The notes below the pieces were generated by a model, which saw nothing but the letters and a program-made list of their open reading frames with translations, had not been told where the DNA came from and ran no database searches. Of a stretch of 64,000 nucleotides of DNA, positions 19,509 through 23,747 are shown piece after piece. The stretch comes from Clostridiales bacterium (GTDB taxonomy: Bacteria; Bacillota; Clostridia; Oscillospirales; Oscillospiraceae). Positions within the stretch are counted from its first letter, which is position 1. Each line of letters opens with the position of its first letter. The DNA lies in assembly GCA_029265405.1 (NCBI GenBank), contig JAJUJI010000002.1:1-64000 (forward strand). The letters are read 5' to 3'. The position numbers were made by a program, and so were the translations under genes.

Positions 19509-21302
19509 TTATTTTACGGCGGCTCCATTGACATAAAGCTTATGCCCGTTAGCGACGACATTGCTCAGGCTGCCGTTGAATTCGGTAATATAGCTGTCTG
19601 CCGTAAGCGTCCAGGTGCTTGCGGAGTCTATGGTTACCGACAGAGAACCTGCCGACGTGCCGTCTGAATTGATAGAGCCGGTAAAAGACGATGAAGCGCT
19701 TATATTCATATCCAGTTTAGAGATGGCGTCAACCGTGATATCGCCGGCAGCCTTCTGGCCCGAAAGATTGAATTTGCAGGTTCCGCCGTTTTTGCCGGAG
19801 ACGCCCCAGCCTCTCGAATTGCTGTTGCCGGCTACGACAAGCAGCTTTGTCCCGTTTGCAGGGTTAAGCTGTACTCCGCTAAGGGTAATGACGCTGTTCG
19901 TGTTTGTTACATAGAACATGTCGCCGTTTTTTGATGTCAGAGTTCCGCCGTTCATCGTAAAGCTGCTGGTGCCAATTTCGGCGTCGCCTGACATGCTCTG
20001 ATAAAGCAATACGTTGTGTATGTTTTCGCTGCTGGAGCTGCCGTAGACTCCGCTCATGTTGCCTGTCACGGTGCAGTTGTTCAGCACTACGGAGTTGAGC
20101 CCTTCAACGACGACCGCTTCAGAGTCGTTAGCGGTCAAAGCAGCATTGCTGACCGTAATTTCGGCGGTGCTGTAAATCGCCGGAGCCCCAGAGCTGCCGC
20201 TGGTCGTATAGGTTCCTCCGTCAACAGTCAGCGTTCCTCCGCCGCGATCGCTGCGTATAGCTGCCTTTACGGTTGAATTGACGGTTAGGTTCTTTGCGTT
20301 TATGACGCCGCCGCCGGCCACTTCAATCCCGCCCGCATTGCCTCCGGTAACGTTGATTGCCGTATCGGCTATGTTTATCGTGGCTCCGTCGTATGCAAAC
20401 ACTCCGTTTGCACCCTCGGCCGACGCCGTAACCGTGCCGCCAGTTATATTTAGAGTTGCGCCGTCCAGAGCCAACACGGCTGAATTCAAGCCGTAAAAGC
20501 TGCTCGCCTCGCTGCTGGAGGCGGCCCCGGAGGTCTTCTTTATCTCGACTCCGACAAGCGAAGCGCTGATTTTGCCTTCGGCCCGTATTGCGTTTTCGTC
20601 GGCATTTGTCGAGGTATAGGTTCCTCCGTTCAACTTTTCTCCGTCGCTAAGATTATAAGCTCCGGTTCCTGTGTTTTCCTCCGCAGCTGAACCCGGCGCT
20701 CCGCCCGGCGCTCCGCCCGGCCCTCCGCCTTGAGGAGGAGCCTTTCCGGCTCCGTTCCGGGCGAGCGGTTCGCCTTCCGGCGTATAGCCTGTAGACGTAT
20801 CTATGCTAACCGCGCCTGTGGAGCTGTCGTATGCTACGCTGAAATCCAAAGCGGACGCTATATCTCTAAGCTTGAAATAATTATTGCCGTCAATATTGTA
20901 TGCGGTAAGCTTTACCTCCCTGTCGTCCACGTAGACCGCCGCGGAAGAGGCTTTTGCCGCAGCGCCGGACGAAGCGCCGCTTGCTTCCAGCTCGCTTCCG
21001 TCGGCCGTATAAGCCGTTTTGGTCTTGATATATATTGCGTTTGAATCGCTGTCGTACTTTATCTCAAATTGCTTTTCGGTTCCGTTGAGCATCATAGCGA
21101 TATCGCGGAGCTTGACATAATTATAGCCTTCGATGTTGTAAGCCGGGAGCGTGACCGCCGTCTTGTTGATATAGACTGAAGATGCGGACTTCTTTGCCTC
21201 AACCGACTTGTTATCCGCGGCTAAGCTGCCCGAACAGGCGTAAGTAAAGAGCAGGCAAAGCGCAGCGGCCATGCATGCCAGCCGCTTAGTGTTTTTTTTC
21301 AT
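19509..21302 (-). CDS. secreted beta-helix surface protein with two copper amine oxidase N-like stalk domains
   Basis: This protein of about 597 residues starts at ATG 21302, which has GGGAGG upstream. Residues 1-28 form a signal peptide; Cys23 could be lipid-modified but the lipobox (TYAC) is poor. Two stalk domains of the copper-amine-oxidase-N type follow (about 44-100 and 118-180), each with the YNI-G-NY-KLRDIA motif. A Gly/Pro-rich linker lies at about 185-205. The rest is a Ser/Thr/Gly/Asn-rich parallel beta-helix with many short repeats (for example LNITGGTV). Such proteins act as adhesins or carbohydrate-binding surface proteins; the ligand is unknown. It is monocistronic and convergent with spo0A. 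Confidence 0.75.
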   Translation of the reverse strand: MKKNTKRLACMAAALCLLFTYACSGSLAADNKSVEAKKSASSVYINKTAVTLPAYNIEGYNYVKLRDIAMMLNGTEKQFEIKYDSDSNAIYIKTKTAYTADGSELEASGASSGAAAKASSAAVYVDDREVKLTAYNIDGNNYFKLRDIASALDFSVAYDSSTGAVSIDTSTGYTPEGEPLARNGAGKAPPQGGGPGGAPGGAPGSAAEENTGTGAYNLSDGEKLNGGTYTSTNADENAIRAEGKISASLVGVEIKKTSGAASSSEASSFYGLNSAVLALDGATLNITGGTVTASAEGANGVFAYDGATINIADTAINVTGGNAGGIEVAGGGVINAKNLTVNSTVKAAIRSDRGGGTLTVDGGTYTTSGSSGAPAIYSTAEITVSNAALTANDSEAVVVEGLNSVVLNNCTVTGNMSGVYGSSSSENIHNVLLYQSMSGDAEIGTSSFTMNGGTLTSKNGDMFYVTNTNSVITLSGVQLNPANGTKLLVVAGNSNSRGWGVSGKNGGTCKFNLSGQKAAGDITVDAISKLDMNISASSSFTGSINSDGTSAGSLSVTIDSASTWTLTADSYITEFNGSLSNVVANGHKLYVNGAAVK

Positions 21303-21448
21303 AATGCCTCCCGTTTTTATCATAATGTGAATAGCATATAATATTTACCATATGACCGCATAAGGTGTTTTATTTTTCTGTGAACAATGCTTGAACGTTG
21401 TGAAAATCGATGCCAAGGATTTCGAGAGCTCTGCAGTATAAAATTATC

Positions 21449-21477
21449 TTGCAAAGAAACGAAAACAATGCTATGAT
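21449..21477 (+). promoter_or_regulatory. predicted sigma-A promoter of the radical-SAM DNA repair pair
   Basis: TTGCAA (21449-21454) is followed after 17 bases by TATGAT (21472-21477). Transcription would start near 21484, only a few bases before the LexA box. Confidence 0.6.
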
Positions 21478-21488
21478 GCTAACGAATT

Positions 21489-21502
21489 AGAACAAATGTT
21501 CC
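21489..21502 (+). promoter_or_regulatory. LexA (DinR) SOS box
   Basis: The sequence GAACAAATGTTC at 21490-21501 fits the Gram-positive SOS box GAAC-RNRY-GTTC at every position. It lies about 12 bases after the predicted -10 element and 16 bases before the start codon. Bound LexA there would block transcription of the radical-SAM gene and its partner. Confidence 0.7.
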
Positions 21503-21517
21503 GAAACGGAGCCGAAC

Positions 21518-22810
21518 ATGAACATAGAGCGAAAGCTTGAAATCCTGGCCGACGCGGCTAAATACGACGTGGCCTGCACCTCCAGCGGCCTCGACAGGGG
21601 CGGCAGGAAGGGCTCGATAGGCAGCGCCTCGGGCTTCGGCTGCTGCCACAGCTTTTCCGCCGACGGGCGGTGCATATCGCTGTTAAAGGTGCTGATGACG
21701 AATATATGCGCGTACGACTGCGCGTATTGCGTAAACAGGCGCTCGAACGACATCCCAAGGGCGGCCTTCTCGCCGCGCGAGCTGGCGGAGCTTACCATTC
21801 AATTTTACAGGAGGAACTATATCGAGGGGCTGTTCGTCAGCTCTGCGGTCATAAGGAACCCGGATTACACGACGGAGCTGCTGATAGAAACGCTGCAAAT
21901 ACTCAGGAGAGAGCATAATTTCAGGGGCTATGTGCACGCCAAGGCCATACCGGGCGCGGACGCAAGGCTCCTGGAAAGGCTGGGGACGCTGGCGGACAGG
22001 CTGAGCGTAAACATCGAGCTGCCGTCCGAAAGCAGCCTTAAGCTGCTGGCTCCGGATAAAACCAAGGAAGCCATATTCGGGCCGATGGGGCGGATAAAGG
22101 ACGGCATTGAGGAAAGCAGGGAAGCCCTTGTAAAATACGGCGACGCGCCGAGGTTTGCGCAGGCGGGGCAGAGCACGCAGATGATTATCGGGGCGACGCC
22201 GGAGACGGATTACAGGATACTTATGCTTTCCGAAGGCCTGTACCGCAGGTATTCGCTCAAGCGAGTTTTCTACTCGGCATACGTGCCCGTGGCGGAAAAC
22301 AAAAATCTGCCGTCCAAGGATACCAAGCCGCCGCTGCTGCGCGAGCATAGGCTGTACCAGGCCGACTGGCTGCTAAGATTCTACGGCTTCAAGGCCTCCG
22401 AGCTGCTGGATGAAAAGCGCCAGCACTTCAGCGCATATATAGACCCGAAGTGCGACTGGGCGCTGAACCATATGGAGCTTTTCCCGCTGGAGGTTAACAG
22501 GGCTCCCTATGAAATGCTCCTGCGGGTTCCGGGCATAGGCGTAAAGGGCGCGAAAAAAATCCTGCTGGCGAGGAAGGAAGGACGGCTGGATTTTGGCGAT
22601 TTGAAAAAGCTGGGCGTCACCCTCAAGCGCGCGCAATACTTCCTGACCTGCAAGGACAGGACCATGCCCGGGTTGAACACCAGGCCTGAGGCCGTTTTGA
22701 GAGGGCTGATGTCAAATGAAAGCATAAAAGCCTTCGACATGCCGCCGGCTGAGCAGCTTTCGCTTTTCGACGCGGAGGATTACGCAAAATGCATAACCGG
22801 GCAAATGTAG
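21518..22810 (+). CDS. putative DNA modification/repair radical SAM protein
   Basis: This 430-residue protein has a radical-SAM motif CAYDCAYC (C64, C68, C71) and a C-terminal helix-hairpin-helix region (LLRVPGIGVKGAKKILLAR) like those of DNA-repair enzymes. It matches the family I know as the radical-SAM protein linked to uracil-DNA-glycosylase-like genes (TIGR03916). Its reaction is unknown. The partner gene starts inside its 3' end with a 22-base overlap. An exact SOS box in the promoter region supports a role in the DNA-damage response. Confidence 0.85.
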   Translation: MNIERKLEILADAAKYDVACTSSGLDRGGRKGSIGSASGFGCCHSFSADGRCISLLKVLMTNICAYDCAYCVNRRSNDIPRAAFSPRELAELTIQFYRRNYIEGLFVSSAVIRNPDYTTELLIETLQILRREHNFRGYVHAKAIPGADARLLERLGTLADRLSVNIELPSESSLKLLAPDKTKEAIFGPMGRIKDGIEESREALVKYGDAPRFAQAGQSTQMIIGATPETDYRILMLSEGLYRRYSLKRVFYSAYVPVAENKNLPSKDTKPPLLREHRLYQADWLLRFYGFKASELLDEKRQHFSAYIDPKCDWALNHMELFPLEVNRAPYEMLLRVPGIGVKGAKKILLARKEGRLDFGDLKKLGVTLKRAQYFLTCKDRTMPGLNTRPEAVLRGLMSNESIKAFDMPPAEQLSLFDAEDYAKCITGQM

Positions 22811-23679
22811 AAGGCGGAGGCCAGGGCTTCGCGCCGGAAATCGCGTCGGAGGGGGGCCATGTCGTCTATCTTTACGACGGCACCTTTGACGGCCTGCTGT
22901 GCGTTGCGGGCATTAGCCTGGCCGAAGGCAAGGCGCCGGCCGGCATCCTGCTTGCCGACGAGGCGCAGCTTACCATGTACGAAACCAGGCGCATTGAAAC
23001 AGACGCCGGGCTCGCGAGGGAAACGGCCATGGAAATAAGGCGCAGGATATCGCGGGACGCGCTGGACCTGGTCAAGAGGGCGTTTCTTACCTGCCTTGAA
23101 AGCAGGGAGCTTGCCATACTGGCCTTTCTCCGCAGGGGCTTCAGGGAGGGAGGAAGCCTCATGCGAAGGCTGACCGCGCCGGAGGTGGCGCCGCTGTTGC
23201 GCGCTGTCGGGCATTTGACGAACGAAGCCGAAAAATACCGCGGCTTTATCAGGTTTTCCGACCTGGGAGGCGCGCTTGTGTCGGTAATAAGCCCCTTAAA
23301 CCAGGTGCTGCCTCTGCTCGCGCCGCACTTTTGCGGCAGGTTCCCGGACGAGACGCTGCTCATATACGACAGGACGCACCGCGCGTTTTTGCTGTGCGAC
23401 AGGGGAACGGGCAGACTCGGCTATATGGACGAGTTCGAGCCCTCTGAAGCGGACACATGGGAGAAAAACTACCGGGCGCTCTGGCAGTCCTTCTACAATG
23501 CCATAGCCGTCAGGGAGAGATACAATCCACGCTGCCGCATGGGGCACATGCCCAAGCGCTATTGGGAGCACATGACGGAATTTTGGGAGCGCGAGGCTTT
23601 TTTTGAGAGCAATACGGTGGCAAAAGCGGGGCCGGGAGACATCCGGGGAACCGACAGGCGCATAGGACCGGCGGAATAG
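22789..23679 (+). CDS. probable DNA metabolism protein with DUF4130-type domain
   Basis: This 296-residue protein is the usual partner of the radical-SAM repair protein (family TIGR03915). It opens, after a short extension, with VVYLYDGTFDGLL. The C-terminal half holds the conserved LLAPHFCGRFPDE, WQSFYNAIAVRERYNPR and MPKRYWEHMTEFW blocks. No nuclease or glycosylase active site is obvious. ATG 22789 is supported by GGAGG ten bases upstream and lies within the preceding gene, so translation is coupled. A strong terminator follows. Confidence 0.82.
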   Translation: MHNRANVEGGGQGFAPEIASEGGHVVYLYDGTFDGLLCVAGISLAEGKAPAGILLADEAQLTMYETRRIETDAGLARETAMEIRRRISRDALDLVKRAFLTCLESRELAILAFLRRGFREGGSLMRRLTAPEVAPLLRAVGHLTNEAEKYRGFIRFSDLGGALVSVISPLNQVLPLLAPHFCGRFPDETLLIYDRTHRAFLLCDRGTGRLGYMDEFEPSEADTWEKNYRALWQSFYNAIAVRERYNPRCRMGHMPKRYWEHMTEFWEREAFFESNTVAKAGPGDIRGTDRRIGPAE

Positions 23680-23706
23680 ATACGCGCCGGCCGAGCGAAT
23701 AATAAA

Positions 23707-23747
23707 GCGGCGGGGACGACCTTTCGTTCCCCGCCGCCTGTTTTTTT
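23707..23747 (+). terminator. rho-independent terminator of the radical-SAM repair operon
   Basis: GCGGCGGGGA (from 23707) pairs with TCCCCGCCGC (to 23737), extended by a small inner CGA/TCG pairing with a bulge. A run of seven T and a further T-rich tail follow. It also lies at the 3' end of the convergent dapF. Confidence 0.85.

Follow-up and report, generated by a model that had tools for sequence, protein, structure and literature searches.

Introduction

Whether a radical S-adenosylmethionine (radical-SAM) gene of the TIGR03916 family and its overlapping partner of the TIGR03915 family belong to the SOS response is the question raised by a locus in the genome of a Clostridiales bacterium (Oscillospiraceae; assembly GCA_029265405.1). 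The locus lies within the first 64,000 nucleotides of contig JAJUJI010000002.1, the whole stretch of DNA analysed here, which is referred to as the window. An earlier note, made from the sequence alone, had claimed that an exact Gram-positive LexA box directly controls this pair and would thereby place it in the DNA damage response. The analysis presented here makes LexA control of the pair very likely, because LexA and RecA are encoded in the genome, the same box precedes repair genes, the box is widely conserved in relatives and tracks the presence of LexA, and an alternative wiring through an XRE-S24 repressor exists in some lineages. With SOS control this likely, damaged DNA becomes the place in which to seek the reaction of this widespread radical-SAM gene.

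The Predicted LexA Operator and Its Genomic Context

Across the window, the pattern GAAC-N4-GTTC occurs exactly once, as GAACAAATGTTC, and every coordinate given for it in the earlier note is right (Table 1). The spacings described there also hold, with 12 bases between the -10 element and the box and 16 bases between the box and the ATG at 21518. The promoter-like site upstream consists of a -35-like TTGCAA (21449-21454), a spacer of 17 bp, and TATGAT (21472-21477) preceded by TG, in agreement with 9 of the 12 consensus bases. The sigma-A -10 element previously proposed was thus recovered as TATGAT; the promoter scan gave three such sites in 2.5 kb, where shuffles gave 1.1 on average, a background at which TTGCAA-N17-TATGAT is a likely promoter and not a proven one. 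Transcription would start at about 21484, and the box would then span about +6 to +17.

Table 1. Features predicted at the radical-SAM locus, with positions in the window.
Feature	Position	Strand	Basis
Sigma-A type promoter, TTGCAA-N17-TATGAT with extended -10 TG (likely)	21449..21477	+	Consensus scan
LexA operator (SOS box), predicted	21490..21501	+	Sequence match, conservation, LexA co-occurrence
TIGR03916 radical-SAM protein, 430 aa	21518..22810	+	Open reading frame, profile search, alignment, model
TIGR03915 / DUF4130 protein, 296 aa	22789..23679	+	Open reading frame, profile search, model
Terminator, probable: 10-bp perfect stem (23707-23716 / 23728-23737) followed by seven T	23707..23747	+	Read from sequence

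The exact match alone is close to chance expectation, as shuffling the window gives a mean of 0.62 exact boxes, with at least one box in 49 of 100 shuffles, so that the case for LexA control is built on context. The genome (2.48 Mb, 98.8% complete) encodes RecA and a single LexA carrying both the LexA_DNA_bind and Peptidase_S24 domains; the lexA gene, whose presence the earlier note had proposed to check, is therefore there. Eight exact boxes occur in the genome, five of them inside open frames of at least 150 residues. The other three, outside such frames, lie one each before the radical-SAM pair, before uvrA (652.9 bits from a partial read) and before a Pol-IV-like gene, whose best NCBIfam match of 315.9 bits falls short of the cut-off of 381. 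A second uvrA box of the GAAC-N4-GTTT form, GAACAGGCGTTT, lies 69 bp further upstream; the genome holds 35 sites of this form, 30 of which were taken as loci.

Conservation of the Box in Relatives

The TIGR03916 family was found over its cut-off in 37 of 101 genomes of a family sample and in 64 of 299 genomes of a phylum sample, each including the own genome. To these loci were added the divergent family locus L047 and 80 named GTDB loci, the best 80 of at least 592. A script placed each gene start at the closest start codon; in the named set a few of these placements seem to be wrong, and the box count is lower for it. Exclusion of four exact duplicates reduced 180 loci to 176, with the own locus included; this set still contains the near-duplicates L116 and L122, two pairs of close sequences, and many loci from related species. 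L047 was left out of this count, of the footprint count and of the comparison with LexA, and it is among the 37 family loci of the 120-bp count, in which the own locus is omitted; in the same count, one of the 63 phylum loci was dropped because its upstream sequence was short or contained Ns.

In the 160 nt before the gene, the pattern RAAC-N4-GTTY was present at 112 of the 176 loci and in none of 176 coding stretches of equal length, and the exact box at 63 and none, respectively; the reversed pattern occurred at two upstream stretches and in no coding stretch. The conservation in related genomes that the earlier note had proposed to examine was therefore observed. Within 120 bp, the family sample of 37 loci had RAAC-N4-GTTY before the gene in 20 cases (shuffle mean 0.2) and the exact box in 14 (shuffle mean 0.1); for the 62 phylum loci the counts were 42 (shuffle mean 0.6) and 15 (shuffle mean 0.0). 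Neither sample contained the reversed pattern, even when one mismatch was allowed. Coding stretches of 120 bp contained neither exact nor GTTY boxes, and one-mismatch boxes in 5 of 37 and 9 of 63 cases. In the named set, 32 of 80 loci have an exact box within 130 bp, a further 18 have RAAC-N4-GTTY, five more a one-mismatch box, and 25 none; at least three of these 25 (L126, L130, L142) carry exact boxes further up, before a small open reading frame (ORF).

Boxes occur in both Bacillota and Actinomycetota, with loci from Paenibacillus, Enterococcus, Lachnospiraceae, Oscillospiraceae, Coriobacteriales and Eggerthellaceae among those that carry one. The commonest spacers are ATAT (15) and AAAT (8). 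Of the family and phylum loci, 70 have a box no more than 130 bp upstream, and 65 of these have a promoter-like site matching at least 8 of 12 consensus bases. In all 65 the box lies inside the promoter footprint, although this is an uncontrolled count and a footprint takes up about half of such a stretch.

Dependence of the Box on LexA

The LexA model TIGR00498 was searched in the 101 genomes with the gene from the family and phylum samples, the named loci lying outside this search, and 100 genomes were counted. A match spanning model position 10 or lower to 190 or higher was regarded as full-length LexA; ten genomes have none, including G018, whose only LexA piece lies at a contig edge. RAAC-N4-GTTY was present within 120 bp in 63 of 90 genomes with full LexA and in none of the ten without (Fisher p 2e-5; one of six settings). 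At the same distance, the exact box occurred in 30 of 90 against 0 of 10 (p 0.03) and the one-mismatch box in 66 of 90 against 1 of 10 (p 1.5e-4). With the distance extended to 250 bp, RAAC-N4-GTTY was counted in 67 of 90 and 1 of 10 genomes (p 1.1e-4), and the one-mismatch box in 72 of 90 and 2 of 10 (p 2.6e-4).

A second type of wiring was observed at 11 of 181 loci, where a gene for a protein with an XRE-type helix-turn-helix and an S24 peptidase lies directly upstream on the same strand, with a gap of 16-202 bp. Pfam HTH_3 and Peptidase_S24 were over cut-off in the four proteins scanned (L043, L046, L145, L161), and seven of the 11 were assigned by eye. An A-G bond, a GDSM motif and a downstream lysine are the marks of self-cleaving repressors, and the repressor at L039, as read by eye, has KAG with its A-G bond, GDSM and the downstream lysine. 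Four genomes of the family sample have such a gene: G003, G009 and G034 lack full-length LexA, and G046 has both. The palindrome TACAAC-N5-GTTGTA precedes the repressor gene at 4 of the 11 loci (L039, L043, L046 and L161, the last from Brucepastera, which we take to be a spirochaete); a relaxed form is found at 8 of 11 and in none of 200 base shuffles, and neither form occurs at L012, L145 or L165. These loci give an independent hint that damage, rather than LexA as such, is the relevant signal. The XRE-S24 wiring was not found in the literature searched, in which no search was made by the words XRE or S24.

The Two Proteins

Both family assignments and the gene overlap proposed earlier were reproduced, the two reading frames overlapping by 22 bp. 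The radical-SAM protein scores 648.6 bits against the TIGR03916 cut-off of 343.5, and its partner 207.2 bits against the TIGR03915 cut-off of 112.25 and 145.5 bits against 27 for PF13566 (DUF4130). Alignments of 61 sequences each, own included, were drawn from 101 and 90 usable loci, respectively.

All 61 aligned radical-SAM sequences contain the three cysteines of the cluster motif CxxxCxxC (C64-x3-C68-x2-C71), and three further cysteines, C20, C43 and C52, are likewise invariant in the own protein and at the 60 other loci and may bind a second iron-sulphur cluster. The predicted model has a predicted local distance difference test score (pLDDT) of 90.4. Among the 50 structural matches listed, lipoyl synthase (4u0o; Z 17.6, root-mean-square deviation (rmsd) 3.6, 228 aligned) ranks closest, followed by HydE (7o1o; Z 17.1, rmsd 2.5, 213 aligned); spore photoproduct lyase is not among these 50 matches, which does not amount to an exclusion. 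The C-terminal part, at about 325-363, is helix-hairpin-helix-like. No convincing relative with a solved structure was found by sequence for either protein (best E 0.73 and 0.18).

Carriage of the gene by phages was considered and set aside, as the viral contigs of IMG/VR yielded only two radical-SAM relatives, L307 (47% identity) and L308 (59%, partial, at a contig end); the 200 bp ahead of each match contain no box with fewer than two mismatches. The divergent homologue L047, from genome G002, scores under the cut-off with a match beginning at model position 55; GAACATATGTTC lies 193 bp before this match, and a DUF4130 gene was not found in the fetched stretch.

The DUF4130 gene is a near-constant neighbour, present within the fetched stretch at 92 of 101 loci and split over two frames at one of the 92; some of the nine loci at which it was not in the fetched stretch lie near contig ends. 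Residues R155, R184, R244 and E264 are invariant in all 61 aligned sequences. In the NCBIfam and Pfam scans, DUF4130 was the only family found, with no other Pfam family at E 0.001 and no glycosylase match. An apparent natural fusion of the two proteins at L025 (open frame 720) was rejected, the DUF4130 frame proving to be separate. A UdgX-type partner elsewhere in the genomes was also looked for: in the 54 of 101 genomes searched, no TIGR03914 match was over cut-off, and the matches below cut-off in 38 of the 54 are probably ordinary proteins resembling uracil-DNA glycosylases.

The DUF4130 model (pLDDT 88.1) gives weak fold matches mostly to DHH/DHHA1 proteins such as RecJ, Cdc45 and NrnA-like proteins, with a best Foldseek E of 2.5e-3, a Z of 8.1 for 8a8k (rmsd 5.0, 188 aligned) and a Z of 7.2 for RecJ 5f54 (rmsd 7.2, 198 aligned). 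These matches fall mostly within one superfamily, and Z values of 7-8 may reflect a common arrangement. A true DHH enzyme was rejected, because profile comparison with 20 NrnA-like proteins gave a probability of 0.3%; as the likeness has no backing from sequence profiles, it is kept as a lead.

Proposed Mechanism and Alternative Explanations

The explanation considered most suitable, in which we have high confidence as a whole, is that the two genes form one LexA-repressed SOS operon acting on damaged DNA. A LexA dimer bound to the box just downstream of the -10 element would stop transcription, and RecA on single-stranded DNA would trigger the self-cleavage of LexA, upon which both proteins would be made. 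The radical-SAM protein would bind DNA through its helix-hairpin-helix-like part, and its 5'-deoxyadenosyl radical, perhaps with the second iron-sulphur cluster on C20/C43/C52, would alter or reverse a damaged base, while the DUF4130 protein would probably act on the same DNA substrate. A role of the pair in the repair of DNA damage is probable; direct chemistry on a damaged base is plausible rather than probable.

Several observations weigh against parts of this explanation. Neither lexA nor recA in the own genome has a box with fewer than two mismatches, within the 439 bases before the lexA start (L009 1-439) or the 300 bases before the recA match (L306), the best site in each case having two mismatches, and this genome thus gives no sign of the classic circuit with autoregulation. 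Many known LexA regulons include lexA autoregulation and recA control, and a target gene needs neither. The association with LexA is no longer significant for the exact box when 250 bp are considered (33 of 90 genomes with full LexA and 1 of 10 without; p 0.16). By both loose definitions, the 250 bp upstream are free of boxes in 15 of the 90 LexA genomes; among these, L077 is partly N and L043 carries the XRE-S24 gene. Loose boxes are present in G018 and G039 (85% complete), both of which were assigned to the group lacking full LexA. All p-values are optimistic, because the genomes are related. With regard to DNA binding, the helix-hairpin-helix match of 19.9 is below the Pfam gathering score of 27.

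It is very improbable that the box arose as a palindrome by chance and that LexA does not control the operon. The number of exact boxes expected per window, the position of most genomic exact boxes inside open frames, and the lexA and recA genes without a box all agree with such a reading; chance alone was rejected on the strength of conservation (112/176 versus 0/176, with the same box at the same place in many relatives and none in the coding controls), of the shuffles and of the association with LexA. It is unlikely, though deserving consideration, that the radical-SAM protein is an enzyme like spore photoproduct lyase that directly reverses an ultraviolet-induced pyrimidine lesion, with DUF4130 as an accessory. 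The three further invariant cysteines, the conserved partner gene, and closest folds that are lipoyl synthase and HydE argue against this assignment, which is otherwise consistent with the radical-SAM core, the DNA-binding-like end, and the predicted SOS control of SplB in alpha- and beta-Proteobacteria in the available parts of PMC3323433.

More doubtful still is the proposal that the pair repairs no lesion and instead introduces or erases a modification of DNA bases, or adds sulphur by means of an auxiliary cluster as in lipoyl synthase, SOS control then serving mutagenesis or defence. This would suit the extra invariant cysteines, the barrel resembling those of lipoyl synthase and HydE, and the description of DUF4130 as a predicted mutagenesis-related enzyme (PMC3765255, in the sections available); yet the same box serves repair genes in the own genome, two loci (L020, L024) are divergent to a UvrD-type helicase gene (PF00580) with boxes between, and the second cluster is itself a prediction. 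On a more far-reaching and tentative reading, TIGR03916-DUF4130 may be an uncharacterised core DNA-damage module of Gram-positive bacteria, wired to damage at least twice, through LexA boxes and, in some lineages without LexA, through a same-operon XRE-S24 repressor built like self-cleaving ones; the module might be a two-protein lesion enzyme, composed of a radical-SAM protein with a possible second iron-sulphur cluster and a degenerate RecJ/Cdc45-like partner.

Relation to Known SOS Systems

COG4277 presumably corresponds to the TIGR03916 radical-SAM family, an assumption helped by TIGR03916 matches in control genomes of Caulobacter, Bacteroides and Thermotoga (two of these three exceed the cut-off), and the second gene of the COG1573-COG4277 operon would then probably encode the same protein family as the present locus. 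This operon, in which COG1573 is a uracil-DNA glycosylase, is under SOS control in Bacteroidetes according to the available parts of PMC8565304, which also cite work on Verrucomicrobia and Caulobacter. LexA control is the feature shared by the two systems, whereas the partner here is a stand-alone DUF4130 protein (TIGR03915) without a glycosylase match, and the box is of the Gram-positive type, other motifs being used in those phyla. The SOS link of the radical-SAM family has thus very probably been published elsewhere, and the placement of the pair in the damage response by the earlier note stands, though not as something wholly new.

Spore photoproduct lyase SplB (COG1533) is LexA-controlled in Proteobacteria (a prediction for the alpha and beta classes) and in Bacteroidetes according to the accessible sections of PMC3323433 and PMC8565304. 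It resembles the present protein as a LexA-repressed radical-SAM protein tied to DNA repair, and differs in that the protein studied here belongs to TIGR03916, has extra invariant cysteines and a helix-hairpin-helix-like end, and is accompanied by DUF4130. In Gram-positive bacteria, a core SOS regulon derived from seven species (B. subtilis, S. aureus, L. monocytogenes and four Actinobacteria) includes a radical-SAM protein whose family is unnamed in the portion of PMC7739468 available, and which resembles the present case as a radical-SAM gene behind a Gram-positive LexA box. That protein is probably of the COG1533 type; were it a TIGR03916 protein, the present finding would be less new. The Clostridium difficile LexA regulon has the same operators as those described here, GAAC-N4-GTTC and GAAC-N4-GTTT, before uvrBA and other repair genes (PMC4234289, in part). 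The available main text of that paper and the available part of PMC3998124, on the gut SOS meta-regulon, contain no match for radical, splB or photolyase.

PMC3765255 (in part) connects DUF4130 itself with uracil-DNA glycosylases and with radical-SAM proteins that resemble SplB. In the literature searched, TIGR03914 is mentioned, TIGR03916 and TIGR03915 were not found by name, and a stand-alone DUF4130 version under SOS control in Gram-positive bacteria was not found. The finding is therefore regarded as only partly new, namely a very probably SOS-controlled radical-SAM repair operon without a glycosylase, based on strong comparative evidence. It extends the SOS link from glycosylase-bearing operons to a glycosylase-free version, which separates the function of the radical-SAM/DUF4130 pair from uracil excision.

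Neighbouring Genes and Other Features

The probable terminator downstream of the pair (Table 1) is absent from the hairpin scan list, as its loop exceeds the limit of 8 used in the scan. At 9 of 181 loci (L018, L020, L024, L027, L036, L126, L130, L142, L148), a small membrane-like ORF of about 40-70 codons is placed between the LexA-type boxes and the radical-SAM gene, without a Pfam match in the two examples scanned. Within 330 nt at these nine loci, exact boxes are present in five, AAAC/GTTC and GAAC/GTTT boxes at L024, and only a one-mismatch box at L020, L036 and L148. As a guess, the small ORF could encode an SOS cell-division inhibitor or a leader.

On the other side of the promoter, a divergent gene on the minus strand (19509-21323) starts 166 bp from the box. 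That the box serves this gene was considered and thought unlikely, given the distance and given that in relatives the box is found before the radical-SAM gene. The divergent gene encodes a long protein with a signal-like start, in which the Pfam copper amine oxidase N-terminal domain is matched at 25.1, barely over the gathering score of 24.2.

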